Part shown: piece after piece, positions 213-47,116 of the stretch
Layout: the number at the start of each line of letters is the position of its first letter
Position numbering within the stretch: the stretch's first letter is position 1
Origin: Ruminococcus sp.
GTDB taxonomy: Bacteria; Bacillota; Clostridia; Oscillospirales; Ruminococcaceae
Reading direction: 5' to 3'
DNA: 64,000 nucleotides
Assembly (NCBI RefSeq): GCF_017464355.1
Contig: NZ_JAFUAG010000045.1
Coordinates: 1 to 64,000 of the forward strand
Position numbers and translations under genes: made by a program
The notes under the pieces: generated by a model
Seen by the model: the letters and a program-made list of their open reading frames with translations, nothing else
Told to the model about the DNA's origin: nothing
The model's database searches: none

Positions 213-3200
213 TTACTGGTCGATAGGCCTGATGCCCTTTACATGAGCTGCAAGCTTAGCCAGGTCGGTAACGTTGATGTCGCCGTCACCGTTAACATCA
301 GCCTGCTCAAGGGAGCCTTCGGGTACGCTTCTGATGCTCTTTACATGGGCTGCCAGCATAGCCACGTCGGTAACGTTGATGTCGCCGTCCTTGTTGATAT
401 CGCCCCGCAGGATAACTTCGTCCTCGCCGTCGGTGGCGTCGTCATCACCGGGTTCGTCGTCGCCGGGCTGGTCGTCACCGGGCTGGTCAGGCTGGTCGTC
501 ACCGGGCTGGTCGGGCTGATCGTCACCGGGCTGATCGTCGCCTGGCTGGTCATCACCGGGCTGAGCAGGCTCATCATCACCGGGCTGGTCATCGCCGCCC
601 TGAGGTTCGTCCTTGGCCTTTATGATGAATTCAGCTTCCGCTGTACCCTCATATGCGCCCATGCCTGTAATGGTCACGGTTGCAGTGCCTGCCTGAACAT
701 TGTCGGAGTACTCAACAGTGTAGTCAACACCCTCGGTAAGCACCTTGTCGCCGTCCTTTACGGTAACAGCAGGGGTTATCTCCTCGCCTGTGTACTCAGC
801 TTCAGCTATATCAAGCTCGATATCCAGCTCCTCGGCGGAACGTGCAGTAATATCGAACTCCTTTGTTATCTCACCCTTGTAGTTGCCGATACCCTTGATA
901 ACAGCCTTTGCTGTGCCGACCTCGGTGTTGTCGGTGTAAGATACTTCATAATCCTTGCCATCGGTCAGACCCTTTACGGTTGCCTCGGGTTCCTTGGCAG
1001 TGCCGTCATAAACGAACTCGTCCTCGGAAAGCTTTGCTGTCATCTTTGAGATATCAGCCTGCTCAATAGTGAATGTCACCTGAACAGTGCCTGTGTAGTT
1101 GCCCTTGCCTGTAACTGTAACAGATGCATTGCTGCCTGCATTCACGTTGTTCTTGTACTCGATATCGTAGTTTGAAGCCGCAGCGTTCTTAACAGTTACC
1201 TTGGGTGTCTGGGCGCTGCCGTTGTAAACAAGTCCGCTGTCTGCTACGGTAACATCAGCCTTCTTGATAGCAGCCTGTTTTATAGTGAAGTTCTTTGTTA
1301 CGGTGCCCTTGTAGCTGCCCTTGCCCTGTATGGTAACAACAGCCTTGTCGCCTGCATTTACGTTGTTTGAGTACTTAACTGTGTAGTCAGTACCTTCTTT
1401 CAGGGTGATGCTGCCGTTCTTGGCAGTTACAGCGGGCTTCTTAGCAGTGCCGTCGTAGGTGAACTCAGCTGTGTCCAGCCTTACATCGCAGTTTGTGATA
1501 TCTGCACCTGTTATCTTGAAGGTCGCTTCAAGAGTCTCAGGATAATCCTCAGAACCTGTGATCATCACCTTGCCTGAGCCGGGCTGTACATTGTCAGAAT
1601 ACTCTACAGTGTAATCCCTGCCATTTTTCAGCACCTTGCTGCCGCTCTTTACAGTTACCCGGGGTTCCTTTGCAGTGCCGTCATAAGTGAATTCCTTTTC
1701 TGAAAGCTCGGCTGTCAGCTTTTCAAATACTTCAACTTCGACAGTGTCGCTTACAAGACCTCTGCTGTCTGTAACAGTTATCTCGGCAGTGCCTTCATTC
1801 TTCACTGTCAGATTGCCTGTTTCATTTACTTCTGCCACCTCAGGGTCACTGGAAGACCATACCAGCTTATCCTCAGCGGGTTCGCCCTTGGCGTTCAACT
1901 GAGCCGCAGAAAGCTGTATGCTCTTTTCAGCAGTGGATATCCTCTTGCTTTCAAAGCTTTCGCCGTTCTCATCAAGTATATCAACTTCCGCTACTGCGTC
2001 AACAAAGGTAACGTTCCTGCTGTTTGCGGGAAGCCCTGCATAGTCCTTGGCGGTGCAGGGTGCTGTACCGTAGAGCAGTACGTTCTTGGTAGCTGTGCCT
2101 GTGGCTGTGAAAGCATTCGTGCCAATGGTAACAGTGTCGTTATCACCGAAATCTACATATTCCAGCGCATTGCCGGTATACATGGCATTATTGCCGATAG
2201 ACTCCAGACCCTCATTCAGTGTAACGCCCTTGAGCAGGCAGGTGGCAGCCATAGCATAGTTGCCGATGGCCTTTACGCTGTCAGGTATGGTGAAATACTC
2301 ATAGGGTGCCATTATGGGGTATTCCAGCAGGGTGGTCTTGTCCTTGTTGTAAAGAACACCGTCCATGGAGGAGTAGTTCTTGTTGTCCTCAGATACCTCT
2401 ATGTACTCGATGGGTGTGTAGCCCTTGCTCTCTATCTCATCAAACTTTATGTTTATGTTGAACATTGAAAGGTCGATGACACTTGCAGTTGCAGGGAAGC
2501 TTATCTTCTGCATACAGTAGTTGTTGTCAAAAGCCTGACCGCCGATAGAGATAAGGGTCTCAGGGATAACATACTCACCCTCGGGGTCAGCAGCAGTACC
2601 AAAGGTGTGCAGATAATGGCAGTCAGAGAATGCCTTGGCGCCGATAGACTTGACAGCTGTGTCAGGCAGTGTTACTTTCCTGAGGTTATCGCAGTTCATA
2701 AACAGGTTCTTCTCAATGGAAGTCAGATTTGAGGAAGACATATCCACGTTCACCAGTTCGTGGTCATTGTTGAATGCGCCATCCTCGATTATCATTACCT
2801 TGCCTGCGTTTGCTGGGCTGCCTATGGTCAGGTCTTTAAGTGCGCACTTCTCGAAAGCATTCTTCTTGATAGTCACCAGTGAATCAGGGAACGAGGTCTT
2901 TTCTCCCTCGGCCTCAGGAGAGAAAGCTGTCAGCTTCTGGCAGCTGCTGAAAGCCTGTTCGCCTATCTGCTCCAGCTTTGAGCCTTCCTCCCACTGAACG
3001 TTTGCAAGCTCAGCACAGTCCTTGAAAGCCTTGCTGTCTATAAGGGTGACATTTGCGGGAATGAATGCCGATGTCAGGGCGGTGCAATTCTCAAAAACGC
3101 TGTTGTTTATTACCTGCAGGTTGCTGAGGGCAGTTGCTCCCGTGTCGGTCATGGGCATATTTTCAAGAGTTATGCAGTCCTTGAAAGCCATAGCGCCCAC

Positions 3201-5306
3201 CTGCTTTACAGTGTCGCTTACTTCAATGCTCTTAAGAGAAGCACAGCCCATGAAAGCCTTTTCAGCTATGGTGGAAACATCACCTGTCAGCACGATATGG
3301 GGCAGGTTCTTGCAATTCTCGAAGGCGCTTGCCTGTACAACTACCAGGTTCTCGGGCAGGGTAAGTGTATCGTTCTTTACGTTGTCGATGTTTGTACCCT
3401 CGATAGCCTCGCAGCCCTTGAAAGCCTTCTCGCCCACAGTACCGAAGTTTGTGTAGCCGCTGTCGTCCTTCAGTATGTTCAGGTATCTGAAACTATTGCA
3501 GTTTTCAAAAGCAGACTTCTGCACACCGCCGCAGGTGGCAGGGAACTGTATGGTGTAGTCATACTTGTCGATGTCAAAGGGTGTCATGGTCTCCAGGGCT
3601 GTGCAGTTCATGCAGGCCTCGTCAATGATAGCACCCAGCCTGGGTGATACCTCGATATCCTTAAGGGAAGTGCAGCCCTTAAGTACCCTGTAATTAAGGT
3701 AGACCACCTTTTCGGGGAAATGCACAAAGGTCAGGGAGGTGCAGTTCTCCATGGCGGAGTAGCCCACTGAATTTACATCAGCCAGGTATATATCGGTGAT
3801 GCCTTTGTCGTTCATAAAGCAGCTTTCAGGAACTCTCTCCAGAGAATCGGGCAGCTTTACCTTGTTTGCATAGTCAAGCCAGTTTTCCTCAGCATCAGCC
3901 ATATCTGCTCTGGGATAGATAGCCAGTTCAGGGCAGTTTGCAAAGGTACCGCCGAACTTATAATCCAGAGGATCAGGGGTATTATCATCTGGGGTGCTCA
4001 CATATGAATATATGAATTCAGTATCACTTACTTCGACTTTACCATCAAGGGTCAGAATGTTGTCTGACATTGCTACCTTTTCAAGAGAAGAGCAGCTGTT
4101 GAAAGCATTATAGCATATTCGTAACACCGAGTTCGGAATATTGACCTTGTTAAGAGCAGTACAGCCATAAAAGCATTCATCGCCTATTATTTCACATACG
4201 GAGTCGTTGCCATGTTCATCTCCGAACCTTACATCTTTAAGGGCAGTACATTTATTGAAAGTGGCTGGAGAAAGAGCCTGCAGGTCATTAGGTATTATAA
4301 AGCTCTGCAGAGCAGTGTCACCGCTGAAAACACCCTTGCCCATGTATTCTATGCCATTTGGCAGTGTGTTCTGTACACCGTTGACTATGACCTCCTGCAG
4401 CATGGTATCTGATGAAAAAGCACCGCTGCAAATGTGTCTGAGCGTGGTGCCTGTGCCGAAGTTCACGGTCTTGAGCATAGTGTCCTTGCTGAAGGCAGTC
4501 AAACCTATCAGCTCTATGGCTGTATCATCTGCAAACTGCATAGTTTCAAGCTGTGTGCAGCCGTTGAAGGCATTGTTATCTATCTTACTCAGCGTGTTTG
4601 GAAAGTCCAGGTCTTTCAGCGCCTTGCAGTTTGCAAAGGCATACTTGCCTATATCCACAATGCTGCCGTCAAAGTTTATATGCTCTATCATGGCACAATC
4701 CTTGAACGCATTATCACCGATAGCATTTACATTGTTCAGCTGCAGGGTGTTGTCCCTGTTGCTGCCGACAAAGTTCTTGCAGCCGTTAAATGCATTGGCC
4801 CCGATAGAAGTTATATTGTCACCGAAGACCGCAAACTGCAGGTTGGTGCAGCCTCGGAACATAGCCGGACCGATCTCTTCTATAAAGCCGTCCTCAAAAT
4901 ATACCTGTGCCAGGTTAACGCACTGACTAGCAAAGAATGTTGGGTAATCGGAGGGTGCGCCAAGTGCGATCTTGCATTCCTCAGGTGCAACAGCGTCCTT
5001 TTTGCCGACCATTGCTTCTTCCAGCAGCGCAAATATCTCCGCCTTGTATCCGCTAAAGTCAAAATGTATCTCCTTAGCCAGACGCACATCATCGTAATAT
5101 GCCGCAGTAGGCATTATCGTTATAGTCATGGTCTTGGTATCAAGCTTTGCCTCTACCATATCGTCAGATGTGGTGACAACGTAAGCTGCCGCCGAAGCCG
5201 AGATGACAAAGCCCGAAGGCATTATCTCTGCCAGTTGGGGCAGGGGGCCTGCACCAAAGACCATCAGCAGGGCGGTAAGTCCTGCTACTATCCTTTTTTT
5301 GTTCAT
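213..5306 (-). CDS. Secreted BspA-type leucine-rich-repeat protein with C-terminal dockerin
   Basis: 1697 residues with an N-terminal signal peptide (MNKKRIVAGLTALLMVFGAG, Ala-rich cleavage region near 40). Residues about 130-1130 are tandem LRR_5/BspA repeats with the pattern AFxxCxxLxxVxxP and IGxxAF. Then follow a Big_2-like Ig domain (about 1150-1250) and five roughly 70-residue modules marked by YDGTAKEP and DYTVxYSDN (about 1250-1560). An acidic GDDQP-repeat linker (1565-1634) leads to a type I dockerin (1635-1697) with two calcium loops (GDINKDGDIN, DVNGDGDIN). BspA-type repeats usually mediate adhesion. The dockerin implies docking to a cohesin, perhaps at the cell surface. The start has GGAGAGGATACTGAC upstream. 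Target and partner are unknown. Confidence 0.9.
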   Translation of the reverse strand: MNKKRIVAGLTALLMVFGAGPLPQLAEIMPSGFVISASAAAYVVTTSDDMVEAKLDTKTMTITIMPTAAYYDDVRLAKEIHFDFSGYKAEIFALLEEAMVGKKDAVAPEECKIALGAPSDYPTFFASQCVNLAQVYFEDGFIEEIGPAMFRGCTNLQFAVFGDNITSIGANAFNGCKNFVGSNRDNTLQLNNVNAIGDNAFKDCAMIEHINFDGSIVDIGKYAFANCKALKDLDFPNTLSKIDNNAFNGCTQLETMQFADDTAIELIGLTAFSKDTMLKTVNFGTGTTLRHICSGAFSSDTMLQEVIVNGVQNTLPNGIEYMGKGVFSGDTALQSFIIPNDLQALSPATFNKCTALKDVRFGDEHGNDSVCEIIGDECFYGCTALNKVNIPNSVLRICYNAFNSCSSLEKVAMSDNILTLDGKVEVSDTEFIYSYVSTPDDNTPDPLDYKFGGTFANCPELAIYPRADMADAEENWLDYANKVKLPDSLERVPESCFMNDKGITDIYLADVNSVGYSAMENCTSLTFVHFPEKVVYLNYRVLKGCTSLKDIEVSPRLGAIIDEACMNCTALETMTPFDIDKYDYTIQFPATCGGVQKSAFENCNSFRYLNILKDDSGYTNFGTVGEKAFKGCEAIEGTNIDNVKNDTLTLPENLVVVQASAFENCKNLPHIVLTGDVSTIAEKAFMGCASLKSIEVSDTVKQVGAMAFKDCITLENMPMTDTGATALSNLQVINNSVFENCTALTSAFIPANVTLIDSKAFKDCAELANVQWEEGSKLEQIGEQAFSSCQKLTAFSPEAEGEKTSFPDSLVTIKKNAFEKCALKDLTIGSPANAGKVMIIEDGAFNNDHELVNVDMSSSNLTSIEKNLFMNCDNLRKVTLPDTAVKSIGAKAFSDCHYLHTFGTAADPEGEYVIPETLISIGGQAFDNNYCMQKISFPATASVIDLSMFNINIKFDEIESKGYTPIEYIEVSEDNKNYSSMDGVLYNKDKTTLLEYPIMAPYEYFTIPDSVKAIGNYAMAATCLLKGVTLNEGLESIGNNAMYTGNALEYVDFGDNDTVTIGTNAFTATGTATKNVLLYGTAPCTAKDYAGLPANSRNVTFVDAVAEVDILDENGESFESKRISTAEKSIQLSAAQLNAKGEPAEDKLVWSSSDPEVAEVNETGNLTVKNEGTAEITVTDSRGLVSDTVEVEVFEKLTAELSEKEFTYDGTAKEPRVTVKSGSKVLKNGRDYTVEYSDNVQPGSGKVMITGSEDYPETLEATFKITGADITNCDVRLDTAEFTYDGTAKKPAVTAKNGSITLKEGTDYTVKYSNNVNAGDKAVVTIQGKGSYKGTVTKNFTIKQAAIKKADVTVADSGLVYNGSAQTPKVTVKNAAASNYDIEYKNNVNAGSNASVTVTGKGNYTGTVQVTFTIEQADISKMTAKLSEDEFVYDGTAKEPEATVKGLTDGKDYEVSYTDNTEVGTAKAVIKGIGNYKGEITKEFDITARSAEELDIELDIAEAEYTGEEITPAVTVKDGDKVLTEGVDYTVEYSDNVQAGTATVTITGMGAYEGTAEAEFIIKAKDEPQGGDDQPGDDEPAQPGDDQPGDDQPGDDQPDQPGDDQPDQPGDDQPGDDEPGDDDATDGEDEVILRGDINKDGDINVTDVAMLAAHVKSIRSVPEGSLEQADVNGDGDINVTDLAKLAAHVKGIRPIDQ
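441..593 (-). repeat. In-gene minisatellite coding the GDDQP linker
   Basis: Tandem 15- to 18-bp units (plus-strand consensus CACCGGGCTGGTCGTC, with variants) encode GDDQP and GDDQPDQP repeats in the linker before the dockerin. The near-identity of the units suggests length variation by slippage. Boundaries are approximate. Confidence 0.8.
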
Positions 5307-28143: not shown

Positions 28144-28198
28144 GTAATCACACCAAGGGAAACGACCCAAATGAAAAAACGTACAGGAGTTGATCATC

Positions 28199-28840
28199 AT
28201 GAAAGCAAACAATAAGAACACAGCAAAGGTAATATTCGCAGGGGCAGCAGCCGTAGTTACAATGGCAGCAGCAGTAGCAGCTGTCTCAGCTGCTGATGTA
28301 AAGGTGATAGGCAAGGCCGATATGGGGACTTCCGTAAAGACCATGACTATCGAGCAGAAAAAGGCAGTAGGTGACAAGCCCGCTGTAAGCAAAGTTTCCG
28401 ACTCTCAGGAAGTAACCAAGAACGGCAAGCACCCCGGCGAAAGCGGCTGCTATTACTACGTCAACGAAACTTCTGCCGATGACGAAGTAAACGAGTATGG
28501 CAAGCACTCCGGCGAAAGCGGCTGCTACTACTACGTCAACGAAGCTTCTGCCGATGAGGAAGTAAACGAGTACGGCAAGCACCCCGGCGAAAGCGGCTGC
28601 TATTACTACGTCAACGAAGCTTCTGCCGATGAGGAAGTAAACGAGTACGGCAAACACCCCGGTGAAAGCGGCGGCTGCTACTACGTCAACGAAGCTTCTG
28701 CTGACGAGGAAGTAAACGAGTACGGCAAACACCCCGGCGAAAGCGGCTGCTATTACTACGTCAACGAAGCTTCTGCTGACGAGGAAGTAAACGAGTACGG
28801 CAAGCACCCGGGCGAATGCGGTTACAACTACAAGGGTTGA
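28199..28840 (+). CDS. Secreted 25-residue tandem-repeat protein, unknown function
   Basis: 213 residues from the ATG at 28199 (CAGGAG 9 bases upstream). A signal peptide (residues 1-32, ending VAAVSAADV) and a short spacer precede five full and one partial copies of a 25-residue unit: KHPGESGCYYYVNE followed by ASADEEVNEYG. Each unit has one Cys next to three Tyr and an acidic tail; copy 4 reads GGCYY, the last ends KHPGECGYNYKG. I recognise no family. Possible roles are a surface or secreted structural protein, a metal binder, or a multi-core peptide precursor. No modifying enzyme or exporter is adjacent. Confidence 0.75.
   Translation: MKANNKNTAKVIFAGAAAVVTMAAAVAAVSAADVKVIGKADMGTSVKTMTIEQKKAVGDKPAVSKVSDSQEVTKNGKHPGESGCYYYVNETSADDEVNEYGKHSGESGCYYYVNEASADEEVNEYGKHPGESGCYYYVNEASADEEVNEYGKHPGESGGCYYVNEASADEEVNEYGKHPGESGCYYYVNEASADEEVNEYGKHPGECGYNYKG
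28427..28837 (+). repeat. 75-bp coding tandem repeats (5.5 copies)
   Basis: Units start at 28427, 28502, 28577, 28652, 28727 and 28802. Neighbouring units differ by few bases, mostly silent, so amplification is recent or the array is being homogenised. Confidence 0.9.
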
Positions 28841-38540: not shown

Positions 38541-38735
38541 CTAACCGCCTCCCACAAAGCTTACGACCTCAACGCTGTCGCCGTCATTGATGACCGTGCT
38601 GTCATACCTGGCTTTCGGTACGATATCAAGGTTTATCTCAACTGCTACCTTGGTGCGGTCGTATCCGTTCTTTTCAAGAAATTCGGCTACGGTGACACCT
38701 GCGATCTCCATTTGTGTGCCGTTTACTTTTACCAT
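38541..38735 (-). CDS. thiS: Sulfur carrier protein ThiS
   Basis: 64 residues of ubiquitin-like fold ending in GGG, with the terminal Gly-Gly needed for thiocarboxylate formation. GGAGGGAAATTT lies before the ATG. First gene of the thiamine operon, directly after the riboswitch terminator. Confidence 0.95.
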   Translation of the reverse strand: MVKVNGTQMEIAGVTVAEFLEKNGYDRTKVAVEINLDIVPKARYDSTVINDGDSVEVVSFVGGG

Positions 38736-39024: not shown

Positions 39025-39053
39025 TTGAATTGAAAGAACTTTTATGCTATAAT
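39025..39053 (+). promoter_or_regulatory. Promoter of the TerB/ATPase/helicase operon
   Basis: -35 TTGAAT (39025-39030), 17-bp spacer, -10 TATAAT (39048-39053), about 37 bases before the TTG start. No obvious operator. Confidence 0.8.
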
Positions 39054-39089: not shown

Positions 39090-40622
39090 TTGAAAGACAT
39101 AGACGACCTTATAGAACTCATCATGGGCGACAGCAAGCTTAAGGAAAGCCTTGGGGATAAGGTATACCGTGATGAACCTATCCTCCGCCGAGCCTCTCAG
39201 CTGGTGCGTGATGTTATCCCTAAAAAAGACGGCACTCCTGCGAAACTCATGGAGATGCGCCGCATGGTGTATACCCCCGAGGCTCAGTGGAAATCCCGTG
39301 AATGGCTGTTCTATAAGCAGGGCAGGTTCATGGAGGATTTTGAAGACAGCTTTGAGGAAAATGTTTTCTTCAACAAATACTTTCCCGTTTACAGTGACAT
39401 GACCCTTGAACAGCAGCGTTCGTTTTTCAGCTGGCGCACAGCTGTCAGGCGGGGGGAGTACAGAGAAACGAGCATATCCTATATCTTCCTGTATGCCTAT
39501 GAGCTCATAAACCTCATAGGTGTCCCCGACCCCAGGACCGCCTATGACAGGCTGAGAGCCCTGCTGGATAATTACGGCGAAAAAGAGCCGAATCTCAAGG
39601 CTTACCTGAACAACTGGCTCTTTGATATGGTGATATATTACGGGTTGGATATCTCACTGGCTGACCTGACCGAGATCTGTGAGTTTGACAAAGCTGTCAT
39701 GACTTTGCGCAGCGCCCCTGCCCATTCCCGTGATGAGATATTTGAGGCGCTGAACTCATTGTCTTCCTACAATGCAGAGCGTTCATCTTTCTATAAAGCA
39801 TACCCCGAGGATCTCCGTGCCGTGGCGGTGGACAGCTACCTTGCTCTTTCGGATTACTATAATACCCACCGCAAGAACCCCCTTTTCGATAAATACATAG
39901 GCAAGCGGGTCTGGAATGTCCACCGTATGTTCCATGCCGCCGTGTTCTGTCATTACCGCACGGTCAAGCATGATTCGGTAGTGATAGATGAAGTCCGCAG
40001 ATATGTTTTCAGAAGCGGTGACTGGTACTGCGAGGAATATGTGGGCAAGATACGGGGCAACAAGAACATAGGCGACCTGCTGCGGGCAGTTGACAGTATC
40101 ATGCGGAAAAAGTATGACTTCAAAAAGCCCCTCCGTCAGCCCGATATCATAAAACCACTCATAAAGATCATCGAGGAAAAAGTCAACGCTCTGCAGGAAG
40201 AGAAAAAGCGTGCCGAGGCCGCCAGGATAGACATCGACCTGAGCAAGCTGGGCTCTATCCGCCGTGCAGCGGATATCACCAGAGAAAAGCTCATAGTCGA
40301 TGAAGGACCCGAGGAAATGATCCCGGCAGATATCCCCGAAACTCAGCCTGAAACAGCAGAGAACTCACCGTCAGAAAAAACAGTTTCTGCAAACACCACC
40401 CCCCTCACTGACGGCGAATATGCTTTCATGCAGGCACTGCTTTACGGCGGGGACTGTTCTGCTGCCGCAAGAAATGCAGGCTCCATGCCCTCACTGCTGG
40501 CAGACAGCATAAACGAAAAGCTGTACGATGACTTTGCAGATACCGTCATAGAATTCAACGGCGAACAGCCGCTTATCATAGAAGATTACGAAGAAGAACT
40601 GAAAGGAATGATACTTCCATGA
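39090..40622 (+). CDS. TerB-N / TerB-C domain protein
   Basis: 510 residues from the TTG at 39090, chosen because GGGAGGTG lies 8 bases upstream; the frame extends back to 38952 without support. Residues about 60-270 match the TerB-N domain (SFFSWRTAVRRGEY, TSISYIFLYAYELINLIG). Residues about 430-506 match TerB-C (LTDGEYAFMQALL, SINEKLYDDFADTVIEF, IIEDYEEELKGMI). In predicted Ter-linked DNA-processing systems such proteins sit with ATPases and SF2 helicases, as here. Biochemical role unknown. Its stop overlaps the ATPase start (ATGA), so the two are made together and may bind each other. Confidence 0.85.
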   Translation: MKDIDDLIELIMGDSKLKESLGDKVYRDEPILRRASQLVRDVIPKKDGTPAKLMEMRRMVYTPEAQWKSREWLFYKQGRFMEDFEDSFEENVFFNKYFPVYSDMTLEQQRSFFSWRTAVRRGEYRETSISYIFLYAYELINLIGVPDPRTAYDRLRALLDNYGEKEPNLKAYLNNWLFDMVIYYGLDISLADLTEICEFDKAVMTLRSAPAHSRDEIFEALNSLSSYNAERSSFYKAYPEDLRAVAVDSYLALSDYYNTHRKNPLFDKYIGKRVWNVHRMFHAAVFCHYRTVKHDSVVIDEVRRYVFRSGDWYCEEYVGKIRGNKNIGDLLRAVDSIMRKKYDFKKPLRQPDIIKPLIKIIEEKVNALQEEKKRAEAARIDIDLSKLGSIRRAADITREKLIVDEGPEEMIPADIPETQPETAENSPSEKTVSANTTPLTDGEYAFMQALLYGGDCSAAARNAGSMPSLLADSINEKLYDDFADTVIEFNGEQPLIIEDYEEELKGMILP

Positions 40623-41935
40623 AGATACCAAAGCGCATAGCGCAGGCAGTTATAAATTCCCTGAAAGGCGGCGTAGTGCCCCGCATAGGCCTGCCCTACA
40701 TAACCGTCGGCAGGGAAGTGGAGATAGATGCCCTGCTCCACGATGTCGATATCATACAGGAGGGCGGAGCCTCCTTTCGGTTCATAGTGGGCAAATACGG
40801 CAGCGGTAAAAGCTTTCTGCTGCAGACTATCAGAAGCCATGTCATGGACAGGAATTTCGTTGTGGTAGACGCCGACCTTTCCCCCGAGCGCAGGCTGCAG
40901 GGCACCAAGGGCCAGGGGCTTGCCACCTATAAGGAACTGATACGCAATATGTCCACCAAGACCCGCCCTGACGGCGGTGCCCTCACCCTTATCCTTGACC
41001 GCTGGATAAGCAGCGTACAGGCAGAAGCTGCCGCCGAAAGCGGACTTGATACAGCTTCCCCTGAGTTTGCTGCTGTGGTGGAGAAGAAGATATATCAGGT
41101 CATAAATGCCCTGAACGAAATGGTTCACGGTTTCGATTTCGCCCGCCTGCTGACCCTCTATTACCGTGCAGCCCTCTCGGGTGACGATGAGCAGAAAGCC
41201 AAGGTGGTAAAGTGGTTCAGGGGAGAATATGTTAACAAGACCGAGGCTAAAAGCGAGCTTGGTGTAAACATCATCATCACCGATGATGACTGGTATGAGT
41301 ACATAAAGCTTTTCGCCATGTTCCTGAAAATGGCAGGTTACAGCGGCCTGCTGGTGCTGGTGGACGAGCTTGTCAACATTTATAAGATACCAAATGCCAT
41401 CACCCGCCAGTACAACTATGAAAAAATACTCACCATGTATAACGATACCCTGCAGGGAAAGGCGCAGTACCTGGGCATCATCATGGGGGGCACGCCCCAG
41501 TGCATCGAGGATACCCGCCGCGGTGTGTACAGCTACGAGGCTCTGCGCTCCCGTCTGGCAGAAGGCCGCTTCGGCCGTGAGGGCATAAGGGATATGCTGG
41601 CGCCTGTCATTCATCTTGTCCCCCTGACCTACGAGGAAATGCTGGTGCTGACAGAAAAGCTTGCCGATATCCATGCCCAGCTCTTCGGCTATGAACAGCG
41701 CATAACTCAGGAGGATATGATAGTTTTTATCAAGACCGAGTTCGGCCGTATAGGTGCTGACAGCCATATCACCCCCCGTGAGGTCATCAGGGATTTCATC
41801 GAGCTTCTGGATATAGCGTTCCAGAACCCCGATATAGATATATCCGGGTTCATATCCTCGGGCGGTATAGATCATTCAAAGCCCGCCGCTGAGGAAGAAA
41901 CAGAAGATACCGATTTTGCGGAGTTTGACATATGA
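40619..41935 (+). CDS. BrxD-like P-loop ATPase (DUF2791)
   Basis: 438 residues. Walker A GKYGSGKS at 58-65, Walker B LLVLVDE with D249-E250, and an arginine-rich late region. The profile (start IPKRIAQAVINSLKGGVVPRIG, then TVGREVEID) matches the ATP-binding DUF2791 group that includes BrxD of BREX type 2 and related systems. Probably an oligomeric DNA-binding ATPase that loads the helicase encoded downstream. Overlaps both its neighbours by 4 bases (ATGA on each side). Confidence 0.82.
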   Translation: MKIPKRIAQAVINSLKGGVVPRIGLPYITVGREVEIDALLHDVDIIQEGGASFRFIVGKYGSGKSFLLQTIRSHVMDRNFVVVDADLSPERRLQGTKGQGLATYKELIRNMSTKTRPDGGALTLILDRWISSVQAEAAAESGLDTASPEFAAVVEKKIYQVINALNEMVHGFDFARLLTLYYRAALSGDDEQKAKVVKWFRGEYVNKTEAKSELGVNIIITDDDWYEYIKLFAMFLKMAGYSGLLVLVDELVNIYKIPNAITRQYNYEKILTMYNDTLQGKAQYLGIIMGGTPQCIEDTRRGVYSYEALRSRLAEGRFGREGIRDMLAPVIHLVPLTYEEMLVLTEKLADIHAQLFGYEQRITQEDMIVFIKTEFGRIGADSHITPREVIRDFIELLDIAFQNPDIDISGFISSGGIDHSKPAAEEETEDTDFAEFDI

Positions 41936-42423
41936 ATGTTTGCAGGATAATAGTCATAGGCTGCCCGGGGTCAGGAAAAAGCACCTTTGCCCGCAGGCTT
42001 GCGGTACTTACGGGCATACCCCTCTATCCCCTTGACCTCATCTACCACCGTCCCGACCGCACAACTGTTCCCCGTGAAGTCTTCGACGGCAGGCTGGAAG
42101 CTATTATGTGTACAGAAAGTTGGATAATTGACGGCAACTATCAGCGCACCCTTGAGAACCGCATTGAACATTGCGACAAGGTCTTCCTGTTTGACCTGCC
42201 TACAGAGGTCTGCCTTGCAGGGGCAAAAGCACGCATAGGCGTGCCCCGCCCCGATATGCCCTGGTATGAGGACGAACTTGACCCGGGTTTCGAGGGCTTC
42301 ATAAAAGAGTTCCGTGACAGCAGGCTGCCGCAGATTTATAAACTGCTTGAAAAGCACAGCGGAAAAGATGTGACAGTGTTCAGGTCGCGGGAAGAGGCTG
42401 ACGGATATTTATTCGGTCTGTAG
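41932..42423 (+). CDS. Small kinase-like P-loop protein (AAA_17/FlaR-like)
   Basis: 163 residues. Walker A GCPGSGKS at about 10-17, a region with WIIDGNYQRTLENRI and a lid-like segment, resembling adenylate-kinase-type proteins annotated as DNA topology modulation protein FlaR. Such proteins probably phosphorylate a small substrate. It sits inside the TerB/helicase operon by ATGA overlap, so it may be a true component or a passenger; I cannot tell. Confidence 0.75.
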   Translation: MNVCRIIVIGCPGSGKSTFARRLAVLTGIPLYPLDLIYHRPDRTTVPREVFDGRLEAIMCTESWIIDGNYQRTLENRIEHCDKVFLFDLPTEVCLAGAKARIGVPRPDMPWYEDELDPGFEGFIKEFRDSRLPQIYKLLEKHSGKDVTVFRSREEADGYLFGL

Positions 42424-42434
42424 GGGAGAATGGA

Positions 42435-42614
42435 ATGAAAAACAACATACACCGCAAGATGACCGAAGAAGACAGCTTCGACCGTTTGTATGCCTGTTGG
42501 TGCAATACACACAACCTGGTCTGGCGGAGAGAAAAAGTCCGTCAGCGCAGAAAATTCCGCAGGAAAATGAAAATACAGCTTTTAAGGGAAAGGGCAGAAA
42601 ATGAACGTTTTTGA
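42435..42614 (+). CDS. Small basic protein between kinase and helicase genes
   Basis: 59 residues from an ATG with GGGGAG 6 bases upstream. The C-terminal half is strongly basic (RREKVRQRRKFRRKMK); the centre has YACWCNTHN, a possible Cys/His metal site. It overlaps the helicase start by 14 bases, a coupling typical of real genes. No family recognised. A nucleic-acid-binding accessory to the helicase is plausible but unproven. Confidence 0.6.
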   Translation: MKNNIHRKMTEEDSFDRLYACWCNTHNLVWRREKVRQRRKFRRKMKIQLLRERAENERF

Positions 42615-44826
42615 CCGCTATGCACCATTCGTGCAGGATTTTATTTACCGCAATAACTGGGAAAGCCTTCGTGCCATACAGGCCGCCGCAGGCGATGTTA
42701 TCTTCAATACCGATGACAACCTGCTGCTGACAGCTTCAACTGCTTCGGGCAAGACAGAGGCTGCCTTCTTTCCCATACTCACCCTCTTTTCCGAGGATAT
42801 GCCCCGTTCGGTGGGCGCCATATACATCGGACCCCTGAAAGCCCTGATAAACGACCAGTTCACCCGCCTCAACGACCTCTGCGAGGACGCAGGCATACCT
42901 GTCTGGCACTGGCACGGCGATGTGGCACAGTCCCACAAAACCCGTATGCTGAAAAAGCCCTCGGGGATACTGCAGATAACTCCCGAATCACTGGAAGCCA
43001 TGATGATACGCAAGCACGCAGCCCTCACCAAGCTTTTCGGGGATCTGCGCTTTATCGTCATCGATGAGGTGCATTCTCTCATGCGGGGCGACCGCGGCGG
43101 CCAGACCCTCTGCCTTATTGAGCGCCTTTGCAGACAGGCAGGGGTGAACCCCAGACGTATCGGGCTTTCCGCTACCATAGGCGACCCCGAGGCTGCAGGG
43201 GAGTTCATCTCGGCAGGCACAGGCAGAAAGACAGCTATCCCGAAAATAGAAGCAAAGGGCACCCGCTGGCGGCTCTCCATGGAGCATTTCTATGTCAGCG
43301 ATACTCAGGCTTCGGCAGACAAAAAGGATATCAAAGCCCTGCCCGAACTTGAAGCCCCCACCGATAAAGCTCCCGCCCACTCCGACCCGGGCATGGGCTA
43401 TATCTTCGAGCATACCAGGGGCAAAAAGTGCCTTATCTTTGTAAATTCCCGTGAGGAATGCGAAGCTGTCACCACCACTCTGCGTTCTTACTGCGAAGCC
43501 AACCATGAGCGTGACCGTTTTCTTATCCACCACGGAAATCTCTCGGCCTCGTACCGTGAAACTGCCGAAGCCGCCATGAAAGACGAAGATGTGCAGATGA
43601 CCACCGTCACCACTGCCACCCTCGAACTCGGTATCGACATAGGCAGGCTTGAAAGGGCTTTCCAGATAGATGCGCCCTTTACCGTTTCATCTTTCCTCCA
43701 GCGCATGGGCCGCACAGGCAGACGTGACCTGCCCCCCGAGATGTGGTTCGTCATGCGGGAGGATATGCCCGAGCCCCGCACCATGCTGCCCTCCACCGTG
43801 CCCTGGAAACTGCTGCAGGGCATAGCGCTGGTGCAGGCCTATCTGGAGGAACGCTGGGTCGAGCCCCCAAGACTTGACCGCCTGCCCTACAGCCTGCTCT
43901 ACCACCAGACCATGTCCACCCTGGCCTCCTGCGGAGAGCTTACCCCTGCCCAGCTGGCACAGCGGGTGCTTACCCTGAAATACTTCCACCGCATAACAGC
44001 AGATGACTACAAGCTGCTGCTGCGCCACCTTATCGAAAAAGACCATATCCAGCGCACCGACGAGGGCGGGCTCATAGTCGGCCTTGCAGGAGAAAGGCTG
44101 GTCAACAACTTCAAGTTCTACGCAGTTTTTCAGGAGAACGAGGAGTACACCGTAAGGTGTGAGTCCCAGGAACTCGGCACCCTGGTCATGCCGCCCCCCG
44201 TAGGTGAGAAGATAGCCATTGCAGGTCAGGTGTGGATAGTCACCGAGCTTGACCATAAGCGCCACCTTGTCTACTGCGAGCCCGTAAAGGGCAAGGTGCC
44301 CGCCTATTTCGGGGATTGCCCAGGGGATATCAACACCAAGATACTCAAGCGCATGAGACAGGTGCTGTGTGAGGACAAGAGCTATCCCTACCTTATGAAA
44401 AATGCGGTAGCAAGGCTTGAACAGGCCAGAATGACCGCCCGCAATTCCGGGGTGTCATCGGTAGATCTTATAAACCTCGGTGGAGATATGTGGGCGCTTT
44501 TCCCATGGATAGGCACCTATGCTTTCTTTGCGCTGGAACGTTTTCTGAACGTAAGGTGCAAGGACAGGCTGCACATGAAAGGTATAGACTCCTTCCGCCC
44601 CTACTTCATACAGTTCACCATGAAGGCCACAAAGGAAGAATTTCTCAGCGTGCTTCGTGAAGAAGCAGCACGCCCCATCGACCCCATGGAACTGGTCTAC
44701 CCGAAAGAGATACCCCTGTTTGAAAAATACGATGAACATCTTCCCGCCGAACTGGTGCGCAAGGGCTTTGCCTATGGTGTGCTGGATATTGACGGAATGC
44801 TTTCGGCAGTGAACAGTTTTATCTGA
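42601..44826 (+). CDS. Lhr/BrxHI-like DEAD/DEAH-box helicase
   Basis: 741 residues, superfamily II. Motif I TASTASGKT (44-52), motif II DEVH (156-159), motif III SAT (191-193), motif VI QRMGRTGRR (368-376), then a long C-terminal extension. It resembles the Lhr-like helicases (BrxHI) of BREX-related loci and is much shorter than E. coli Lhr. Predicted to translocate on DNA or DNA:RNA hybrids with the ATPase and TerB protein. AAGGGAAAGG lies upstream. Confidence 0.88.
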   Translation: MNVFDRYAPFVQDFIYRNNWESLRAIQAAAGDVIFNTDDNLLLTASTASGKTEAAFFPILTLFSEDMPRSVGAIYIGPLKALINDQFTRLNDLCEDAGIPVWHWHGDVAQSHKTRMLKKPSGILQITPESLEAMMIRKHAALTKLFGDLRFIVIDEVHSLMRGDRGGQTLCLIERLCRQAGVNPRRIGLSATIGDPEAAGEFISAGTGRKTAIPKIEAKGTRWRLSMEHFYVSDTQASADKKDIKALPELEAPTDKAPAHSDPGMGYIFEHTRGKKCLIFVNSREECEAVTTTLRSYCEANHERDRFLIHHGNLSASYRETAEAAMKDEDVQMTTVTTATLELGIDIGRLERAFQIDAPFTVSSFLQRMGRTGRRDLPPEMWFVMREDMPEPRTMLPSTVPWKLLQGIALVQAYLEERWVEPPRLDRLPYSLLYHQTMSTLASCGELTPAQLAQRVLTLKYFHRITADDYKLLLRHLIEKDHIQRTDEGGLIVGLAGERLVNNFKFYAVFQENEEYTVRCESQELGTLVMPPPVGEKIAIAGQVWIVTELDHKRHLVYCEPVKGKVPAYFGDCPGDINTKILKRMRQVLCEDKSYPYLMKNAVARLEQARMTARNSGVSSVDLINLGGDMWALFPWIGTYAFFALERFLNVRCKDRLHMKGIDSFRPYFIQFTMKATKEEFLSVLREEAARPIDPMELVYPKEIPLFEKYDEHLPAELVRKGFAYGVLDIDGMLSAVNSFI

Positions 44827-44863
44827 TACAGAACAGTCCTGTCTTATAAAGAAAGGAGAAGCC

Positions 44864-45382
44864 ATGCTTATCACTGACAGAGAAGAATACCTGCGTATCT
44901 GGGACATGGTGTATGAACGCCTGGGTTTTGAACCCTCATACGATCACCGTGGCCATTCCATGGAAGTACCCCTGCCCTTTGATATCAGGGAGCGATATTC
45001 GGTCTATGCCACAGACGGACTACCCGTTGACAAAATAGATGAACTGTACAAAAAAATGACTTCTGTTCTTGCGGATATCACCCCCGCAGGAGGAAAGGTC
45101 TATGCCCTTGACTGGCAGCACAGCCTGTTCCTCTTTGACCCCAGAGATAAGGAAGATATGAAAACCGTGTATGTGGAAGACGAAAAATATTCGGGTGGAG
45201 GGTACTATGCTTATTTCCCCGAATTTCTCCCCGACGGCGACTACTATTTCTTCATTGCGGAAGATTTTTCCTTCGGCTGGCTGGGGCACCCCTGGCGGCA
45301 GGAGATATGGGTCTTCGGTGAAAAGCTGCTTGCCTTCATGGAAGAAAACTACAAGACCCTCGGCTTTGAAAAGCTGGTATAA
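44864..45382 (+). CDS. DUF2716-like protein
   Basis: 172 residues with the order ALDWQHSLFLFDP, FPEFLPDGDYYFFIAEDF, GHPWRQEIWVFGEKLL, which fits DUF2716. Function of that family is unknown. It starts 37 bases after the helicase stop with AAAGGAG, so it may be the last gene of the operon. Immunity-type or toxin-linked roles have been suggested for some SUKH-like neighbours of such proteins, but nothing here shows that. Confidence 0.6.
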   Translation: MLITDREEYLRIWDMVYERLGFEPSYDHRGHSMEVPLPFDIRERYSVYATDGLPVDKIDELYKKMTSVLADITPAGGKVYALDWQHSLFLFDPRDKEDMKTVYVEDEKYSGGGYYAYFPEFLPDGDYYFFIAEDFSFGWLGHPWRQEIWVFGEKLLAFMEENYKTLGFEKLV

Positions 45383-45444: not shown

Positions 45445-46371
45445 TTATTTCAGGAACCCGTTGATTATCTGCTCCTCAGCCTCAGCCTCGGTAAGACCCA
45501 GTGTCATCAGCTTTATCAGCTGCTCGCCTGCTATCTTGCCTATGGCAGCCTCGTGAACAAGGGCTGCATCAACGCTGTTGGCCTCCAGTGAAGGAACAGC
45601 CAGTATCCTGCCGTTGTCCATGATTATGGAGTCGCATTCGGTGTGACCGCTGCAGGCAGCGTTGCCGTTTACGCAGAGGTCAAGCTTCTGGTAAGAGTTG
45701 TCCCTTGCAACAGAACGTGATACCACATCAGCACTGGAACCGTCACCGTTCAGCGATACCTGATAGGTGCTGAGTGCCTGCTGCTCACCGTGGGTCATCA
45801 GCCTTTCACGGACATTCAGCTTGGCACCGGCCTTAAGCTCGGCCACAGTTTTTCTGTCTGTGGAGTCAACACCCTTTATCTGCACCATTTCCATATCAAC
45901 AGTGCTGCCCTCTTCCATGTAGACTTCCGTCACAGGGTTCAGCACCCTTTTGCCTGTGCCCTCACCTGAGCCGTAGTGTTTTTCCACATATCTTACCTTG
46001 GAATTCTTTCCCACGAAAAATCTGTGTACACCGTCATGTTCCGAATCCTGAGTGCCGCAGTTGTCGATACCGCAGCCCGCAACTATGAGCACATCGCAGT
46101 TCTCGCCAACATAGAAATCATTGTAGACCGTTTCCTTCAGGCCGCTTTCGCTGAGAACGACAGGTATGTGTACGCTCTCGTTCTTTGTGCCGTCCTTGAT
46201 CTTTATGTCGATACCGCTTACATCGGTCTTGCTGATTATCTCGATATTCGCCGTGGAATTTCTTCCCACCGATTCACCGTTGGCACGGAGATTGTACGCA
46301 CCCTCGGGTATGTCATGAAGCTCTGCTACTTCCTGTAAAAGCTGTTTCTGTACAGCGTCCATTTTCAGCAT
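45445..46371 (-). CDS. sufB: SufB/SufD-like Fe-S scaffold protein of a minimal SUF system
   Basis: 308 residues from the ATG at 46371 (AAGGAGG 8 bases upstream); a GTG at 46380 is the alternative. Beta-helix core with the conserved end region HTECDSIIMD and VHEAAIGKIAGEQ. Much shorter than E. coli SufB (about 495) because the N-terminal part is lacking, as in the two-gene SufBC (SMS-type) systems of anaerobes. Assembles [Fe-S] clusters with the SufC ATPase upstream. Confidence 0.9.
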   Translation of the reverse strand: MLKMDAVQKQLLQEVAELHDIPEGAYNLRANGESVGRNSTANIEIISKTDVSGIDIKIKDGTKNESVHIPVVLSESGLKETVYNDFYVGENCDVLIVAGCGIDNCGTQDSEHDGVHRFFVGKNSKVRYVEKHYGSGEGTGKRVLNPVTEVYMEEGSTVDMEMVQIKGVDSTDRKTVAELKAGAKLNVRERLMTHGEQQALSTYQVSLNGDGSSADVVSRSVARDNSYQKLDLCVNGNAACSGHTECDSIIMDNGRILAVPSLEANSVDAALVHEAAIGKIAGEQLIKLMTLGLTEAEAEEQIINGFLK

Positions 46372-46384
46372 CTCCGTCACCTCC

Positions 46385-47116
46385 TTATTCTTCGATCTTG
46401 GGACAAATGGTCTGTGCGTAATTGCTGCTCATTATTTCGGGCAGTATCTCATCTGCGGGGCCCTGCTTTATCAGCTTACCGTCAGAAAGCACCACTATCT
46501 CATCTGCTATTTTCAAAAGTCTTTCCTGATGAGAGATGACAACTACCGTCCTGTCAGTATCAGCCTTGCGCATATTCTCAAATATGCGGATAAGGTTGTT
46601 GAAGCTCCACAGGTCGATACCGGCCTCAGGCTCATCGAAAACTGCAAGCTTCACATCTCTTGCCATGACAGTTGCTATCTCTATCCTCTTCAGTTCGCCG
46701 CCCGAAAGGGAAGCGTTCACCTCACGCCTGATGTAGTCCTTGGCGCAGAGCCCTACCTCGGAAAGATAAGCGCAGGCATCGGAAACCGAAAGATTTTTGC
46801 CCGCAGCTATCCTCAGCAGGTCAAGTACCGTCAGCCCCTTGAAGCGTACAGGCTGCTGAAAAGCAAAGCCTATGCCTGCCCTGGCCCTTTCGGTTATGCT
46901 CATGTCGGTAATGTCTGTACCGTTGAATATCAGTCTGCCTTCGGTGGGCTTTACTATTCCCGCGATTATTTTCGCCAGGGTAGATTTGCCGCCGCCGTTA
47001 GGGCCTGTTATAACGATGAACTTGTCATCGGGTATGATAAGGTCTATGCCTCTGATTATGTCGGCAGCCTTGCCGCCGTCATCTGCACTGAAAGTTATAT
47101 TTTTAAGCTCCAGCAT
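46385..47116 (-). CDS. sufC: SufC-type Fe-S assembly ATPase
   Basis: 243 residues. Walker A GPNGGGKS (38-45), signature LSGGELKR, Walker B KLAVFDEPEAGID, H-loop SHQE. The signature and the PEAGID sequence are typical of SufC rather than of a transporter ATPase. First gene of the two-gene operon with sufB 13 bases on. Confidence 0.93.
   Translation of the reverse strand: MLELKNITFSADDGGKAADIIRGIDLIIPDDKFIVITGPNGGGKSTLAKIIAGIVKPTEGRLIFNGTDITDMSITERARAGIGFAFQQPVRFKGLTVLDLLRIAAGKNLSVSDACAYLSEVGLCAKDYIRREVNASLSGGELKRIEIATVMARDVKLAVFDEPEAGIDLWSFNNLIRIFENMRKADTDRTVVVISHQERLLKIADEIVVLSDGKLIKQGPADEILPEIMSSNYAQTICPKIEE

Follow-up and report, generated by a model that had tools for sequence, protein, structure and literature searches.

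Introduction

Does a compact run of genes for a TerB-type protein, a BrxD-like ATPase and an Lhr-like helicase in a Ruminococcus genome represent a new defence or DNA-processing system, or a known system that has escaped recognition? The run lies on the forward strand of a 64,000-nucleotide stretch of contig NZ_JAFUAG010000045.1 (Ruminococcus sp., assembly GCF_017464355.1), and this whole stretch is referred to as the window. An earlier note, made from the letters of the window alone, described the three genes as a standalone module that matches no complete named system. The standalone module is borne out and is very probably defensive, whereas the second part of that description was wrong: the PADLOC profiles identify the three genes as sngA, sngB and sngC of Shango, a tested system (PMC10250203). 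The operon is a further member of a known system, correctly spotted and previously not recognised as Shango. In all likelihood it is a complete Shango system (sngA-sngB-sngC), with three proteins that share one joint function.

Shango was reportedly first named by Millman et al. in 2022. The same three-gene set in Pseudomonas aeruginosa PA14 cuts the plating of many, although not all, of the phages tested by a modest 10- to 100-fold and also protects in liquid culture (Johnson et al. 2023, PMC10250203). Shango from Escherichia coli islands, studied by another group, had an effect of about 10-fold on two phages (as reported in PMC10250203). A rumen survey includes Shango among the systems detected by DefenseFinder (PMC13356809). 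No mechanism for Shango is given in the portions of the literature available here, including those of PMC10250203 and PMC12278908.

What is added here is that the three genes are kept together even when scattered over the genome, that they seem to be inherited at a fixed site in this group of bacteria, and that a genus-specific fourth gene is a candidate partner. Literature searches combining Shango with vertical inheritance, core genome, Clostridia, Ruminococcus, gut and Bacillota returned, among the matches listed, no title or abstract opening that makes these points, though they may still have been published.

Identification of the operon as Shango

The identity as Shango rests on the PADLOC profiles, which were the best for all three proteins by wide margins and across most of each protein. 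SngA was matched with 267 bits over residues 37-508 of 510, SngB with 637 bits over residues 2-438 of 438, and SngC with 921 bits over residues 3-736 of 741 (E-values in Table 1). The genes follow the Shango order (TerB-type protein, ATPase, DEAD/DEAH helicase) on a single strand between 39090 and 44826, and both this order and their domains agree with the experimentally tested PA14 copy (PMC10250203). In contrast to Shango elsewhere, two small genes are inserted before sngC, one kinase-like and one encoding a conserved basic protein of 59 residues. The reading as an unnamed system is ruled out by these matches. In Pfam, SngA is matched by TerB_N (E 1e-28) and TerB_C (E 1.5e-23), both over the cut-off, and SngB by BrxC_BrxD (E 4e-171).

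The motifs GKYGSGKS and LVDEL of SngB and TASGKTEA, DEVH, SAT and QRMGRTGR of SngC, which we take to be Walker and superfamily 2 (SF2) helicase motifs, are intact. Walker A GKS and Walker B DE are kept in all 22 aligned SngB proteins (22 of 27 sequences), and GKTEA and SAT in all 20 aligned SngC proteins (20 of 25 sequences); the SngA alignment held 23 of 27 sequences. The core of SngC also resembles Lhr and the ligase-associated DEXH repair helicases. It matches long ATP-dependent DNA helicases of the Protein Data Bank, presumably Lhr, as well as the ligase-associated family TIGR04121, the latter far under the cut-off (193 vs 850 bits). A published tree places SngC in a potentially distinct clade together with BrxHI, DruE and DpdJ (PMC12278908).

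Co-occurrence of the three genes

The three core genes were searched in 150 genomes of relatives and in 398 genomes of the phylum, with the window's genome included in each sample. SngB was counted at E 1e-50 in the relatives and 1e-80 in the phylum, SngC at 1e-120 and SngA at 1e-10, so that weaker homologues are left out of the counts. Among the relatives, SngA, SngB and SngC were found in 29, 29 and 28 genomes, which form the same set, and the sole SngC miss is an assembly of 60% completeness (G140) with a contig end inside sngB. The corresponding counts in the phylum were 23, 23 and 25, and the 23 coincide. Every SngB-bearing genome of both samples has a SngA partner. The co-occurrence check that the earlier note had proposed is therefore strongly positive.

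The genes are adjacent in most carriers. In five of the 29 carriers among the relatives they are unlinked and all three are kept: in G047, sngA lies on a separate contig within a run of other genes, and in G144 and three genomes of one genus (G095, G119 and G137), sngA and sngB are paired and sngC lies elsewhere. The split in the latter three is probably one event, since they belong to the same genus, and the triad has likely been split on three separate occasions, with the full set retained each time. A further carrier, G105, appears split, but each piece sits at the end of a contig and the two may adjoin. Retention of the full triad after such splits is a stronger argument for a joint function than linkage in an operon. 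The anti-phage effect of Shango has been demonstrated (PMC10250203), and the unlinked cases bear on its working unit as a natural hint that it is formed by all three proteins.

Chromosomal site and inheritance

Eight of the 28 other species of the window's genus carry the triad. The same arrangement of thiamine (thi) and suf flanking genes is found in seven of the nine same-genus carriers, the window counted. G017 has the suf flank only. In G019 only the thi flank is present; the contig breaks off within sngC, and the suf genes lie on a different one, which has no sngC match within 2.9 kb beyond sufBD. The site is empty in the non-carrier G014, with a distance of ~0.26 kb between thiS and sufBD; this genome is placed outside the carriers in the supermatrix tree (with 57% support only), and the suf tree weakly puts it among them. 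The main groupings are common to the SngA, SngB+SngC, Thi and Suf trees, from which G001 (L102) was omitted. The trees differ on G011/G022, where an odd grouping has 75% support in SngB+SngC against 94-100% for the alternative in the rest, and they also differ on G017 and G019. At one carrier locus, G022 (L033:12188-14802), transposase-like fragments, assigned by eye, lie between thiS and sngA.

Among the relatives, three further genera have more than one carrier (g68, g69 and g79), and the flank comparison was made within the sample of relatives, with the multi-carrier genera of the phylum (g139, g179, g197 and g206) outside it. All seven same-genus locus pairs share two to six flanking open reading frames (ORFs) other than sng genes, on both sides in g69 and g79, and in g68 on the downstream side together with one gene between sngA and sngB. 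Of the locus pairs from different genera, only 2 of 146 share a flanking ORF, a single one in each case, at 27% and 35% identity. Since flanks are common within genera and not between them, Shango here seems to have been acquired rarely and vertically inherited thereafter.

The situation differs elsewhere. The P. aeruginosa copy lies in a variable defence hotspot (PMC10250203), and enterobacterial SngB-like genes, counted by SngB alone, occur on many plasmid records. A tblastn search with SngB matched 680 of 72,556 plasmid records, and 540 of the 680 are predicted conjugative. The two loci inspected among the matched records have the full triad with the same gene order and domain set. No SngB match was found among 50,697 phage records at E 1e-20. 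The fixed-site lineage indicates that a system from variable defence hotspots and plasmids can also turn into a stable resident.

Two side observations concern g68 (L051, L052 and L054). Its sngA-sngB pair is next to a conserved gene block, judged by eye to be ribonuclease Y-like and TruB-like, and its sngC is located elsewhere. The extra gene between sngA and sngB (L052:9071-9877 and L054:3551-4372) is present in two of the three species, with 58% mutual identity.

Conservation and selection

Within the genus, the median identity of SngB (94%) and SngC (90%) is comparable to that of SufBD (94%) and ThiH (92%), and that of SngA is 63%. The median ratio of nonsynonymous to synonymous differences (pN/pS) is 0.065 for SngB, 0.097 for SngC and 0.32 for SngA, and the neighbours ThiF and an EAL-GGDEF protein have 0.295 and 0.337. 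These comparisons cover eight of the nine same-genus operons for SngC (one is ended by a contig end), eight for the basic gene and five for the kinase-like gene; values for SufC are not quoted because the wrong paralogue (23% identity) was taken at one locus. SngB and SngC are under strong purifying selection. Positive selection or an arms race on SngA was considered and rejected, since ThiF and the EAL-GGDEF protein have similar ratios and synonymous sites approach saturation, with the synonymous divergence (dS) not computable in 21 of 36 SngA pairs.

Small genes associated with the operon

The kinase-like and the basic small proteins had both been put forward as new components. For the kinase-like protein this does not hold. 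Among nine same-genus operons its gene is intact (a frame of at least 60% length) in five, a remnant in two and not found in two, and a gene intact in only five of nine operons is not a core part. The DUF2716 gene was also rejected as a component, being present in two of nine same-genus loci (the G019 locus is seen only in part). The slot before sufBD holds flavodoxin-like and GNAT/acetyltransferase-like genes in other loci, and the DUF2716 protein probably lies outside the system.

The proposal stands in part for the basic protein. In eight of nine same-genus operons its gene begins with ATG and overlaps the beginning of sngC by the same 14 nt, and in two operons it has lost 7 and 4 codons in frame. 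Invariant residues occupy 23 of 59 aligned positions, and the median pN/pS is 0.27. The gene was found only in this genus: there was no match in 18 Shango loci of other genera, four of which have no sngC nearby. In G024 it is reduced to a stub, with sngA, sngB and sngC retained. The gene is real, genus-specific and dispensable. Its product is a possible fourth component of Shango in this genus and a specific candidate for an additional subunit.

Proposed mechanism

Most probably, SngA, SngB and SngC cooperate on DNA as a single machine. SngB, the BrxD-like ATPase, would engage DNA and help to load or drive SngC, and SngC, the Lhr/BrxHI-like helicase, would unwind or remodel the incoming phage DNA. 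The faster-changing SngA, with its TerB_N and TerB_C domains, might be an adaptor or sensor that joins SngB and SngC and perhaps recognises the trigger. The system would thereby block the replication or processing of the phage DNA, which is likelier than cutting because no nuclease domain is seen. This division of labour, and a SngA-SngB-SngC complex in the proposed form, have a reasonable prospect of being right, though one short of even, and anti-phage protection by the present copy is predicted from its genes. A broader picture is offered more tentatively still. In Clostridia, Shango may be an obligate three-protein machine that is now a resident chromosomal module, rarely acquired, vertically inherited at a fixed position and retained in full even after its genes have been scattered. 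It may also have a lineage-specific basic fourth subunit, possibly DNA-binding and coupled to the translation of the helicase.

Alternative explanations

The ATPase and the helicase match the BrxD and BrxHI profiles of PADLOC (E 3e-46 and 1e-128), and the operon might be a reduced remnant of a type 2 bacteriophage exclusion (BREX) or phage growth limitation (Pgl) system that kept brxD and brxHI. The gene content of type 2 BREX includes pglX, pglZ, brxD and brxHI. In contrast, the third part here is a TerB_N/TerB_C protein, and the earlier observation that pglX, pglZ, a methylase and a nuclease are all missing from the operon was confirmed. The Shango models score about four times higher for the ATPase (637 vs 156 bits) and twice as high for the helicase (921 vs 428 bits), and the NCBIfam BREX_BrxD match reaches 157.6 bits, under its cut-off of 350. 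The SngA partner in every SngB genome speaks against a remnant as well. PglZ (PF08665) had no match at E 0.001 in the window's genome assembly, which is 91% complete. With the weaker BrxD and BrxHI matches and no PglZ, the operon is not BREX, and the remnant was rejected as extremely improbable. Scarcely more probable is a Ter-linked system against chemical stress of the tellurite type in place of phage defence. It would agree with the TerB_N and TerB_C domains of SngA and with four TerD-family matches in the genome, two of them ~53 kb further along the same contig. However, the operon has no Ter gene beyond the TerB-type one, the partners of SngA are DNA-acting enzymes, and the Shango that was tested acts against phages (PMC10250203). 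Among the matches listed, the searches on DUF2791 together with TerB and on 'Ter-dependent stress response' yielded nothing useful.

Domestication of the triad is unlikely too, yet it deserves more weight than either of these. The three genes would then serve as a chromosome-maintenance or replication-stress module, kin to Lhr-type repair helicases, with the anti-phage action secondary or lost. The shared chromosomal site in the window's genus and the shared flanks within g68, g69 and g79 would fit such a role, as would the similarity of SngB and SngC identity to that of some core neighbours and the retention of the triad when unlinked. On the other hand, the distribution is patchy, with carriers numbering 8 among the 28 other species of the genus and 23 among the 398 genomes of the phylum, which means that most sampled species live without the triad, and one related species has an empty site. 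The plasmid records, most of them predicted conjugative, fit defence better than housekeeping.

Some observations nevertheless weigh against a complete and defensive Shango. Stable chromosomal inheritance is unusual for a defence system and leaves room for another role. The same applies to the finding that 20 other larger ORFs of the window, scanned at E 1e-10, hold no recognisable defence system (the thi and suf genes fell outside this set, as did the 1697-aa ORF at 213-5306), which also favours domestication. A defence island around the operon was rejected: mad3, mad8, AriA and PDC-M43B matches on 4 of the 20 ORFs had partial coverage and were read as common-domain cross-matches. At Pfam E-values up to 1, SngA matches TerB_N and TerB_C and not PF05099 TerB, the domain given for Shango in a review table (PMC10952713). 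Two genomes of the phylum, G243 (C1:1879331-1881427) and G319 (C28:17074-19122), have SngC matches of 493 and 422 bits and lack both SngA and SngB matches; the two proteins may be other helicases of the clade, possibly defence helicases. Against solved structures, SngA gave two chance-level matches (E ~0.5) and SngB none at E 0.01, and SngA may hide a nuclease fold.

Locus layout and genomic surroundings

Frames and domain matches agree with the six genes first listed, and the six open frames occupy 39090-45382 at the coordinates first described (Table 1). The TTG start of sngA is preceded by a Shine-Dalgarno-like GGGAGGTG. A single promoter with mostly overlapping gene junctions had been proposed, and this was sustained in part. 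Three of five junctions overlap (4, 4 and 14 nt) and two are gaps (11 and 37 bp). A promoter-like site is present ahead of sngA, but the consensus scan found six such sites in the region against a shuffle mean of 6.6 (sd 3.4), and at this chance level the promoter is plausible only.

Table 1. Features of the Shango operon in the window (aa, amino acids; nt, nucleotides; pI, isoelectric point).
Feature	Position	Strand	Evidence
Promoter-like site TTGAAT-17-TATAAT	39025..39053	+	Consensus scan, 10/12 matches
sngA: TerB_N/TerB_C protein, 510 aa, TTG start	39090..40622	+	PADLOC SngA E 1.4e-79; Pfam TerB_N, TerB_C
sngB: BrxC/D-like P-loop ATPase, 438 aa	40619..41935	+	PADLOC SngB E 4e-192; BrxD only E 3e-46
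P-loop kinase-like rider gene, 163 aa, accessory	41932..42423	+	NCBIfam PRK08118 E 4e-31, 108 bits vs cut-off 215
Small basic protein, 59 aa, pI 10.9	42435..42614	+	Overlaps sngC start by 14 nt; no family match
sngC: Lhr/BrxHI-like SF2 helicase, 741 aa	42601..44826	+	PADLOC SngC E 1.5e-277; BrxHI E 1.4e-128
DUF2716 protein, variable slot between sngC and sufBD	44864..45382	+	Pfam E 1.1e-29

The cassette is flanked by a divergent thiamine operon, with thiS at 38541-38735, and by a sufBD-sufC pair on the opposite strand (45445-47116). ThiC, ThiD and ThiE were named by Pfam, and thiS, thiF, thiG, thiH and suf are presumed from their sequences. A thiamine pyrophosphate (TPP) riboswitch (RF00059, 38793-38901, minus strand, 59.1 bits) is located upstream of the divergent thi operon and adjoins the Shango promoter region. 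The TerD-family matches of the window's genome (G000) are at C26:98411-99652 (L117 and L118, adjacent, on the window's contig), C34:2340-2882 (L119) and C36:6604-7101 (L120). An open frame at 28190-28840 (plus strand) has only scattered weak Pfam matches (WW, DUF5111) and is probably of low complexity. Dockerin proteins and a glycoside hydrolase family 5 (GH5) cellulase are present, from which the host looks like a fibre-degrading Ruminococcus.

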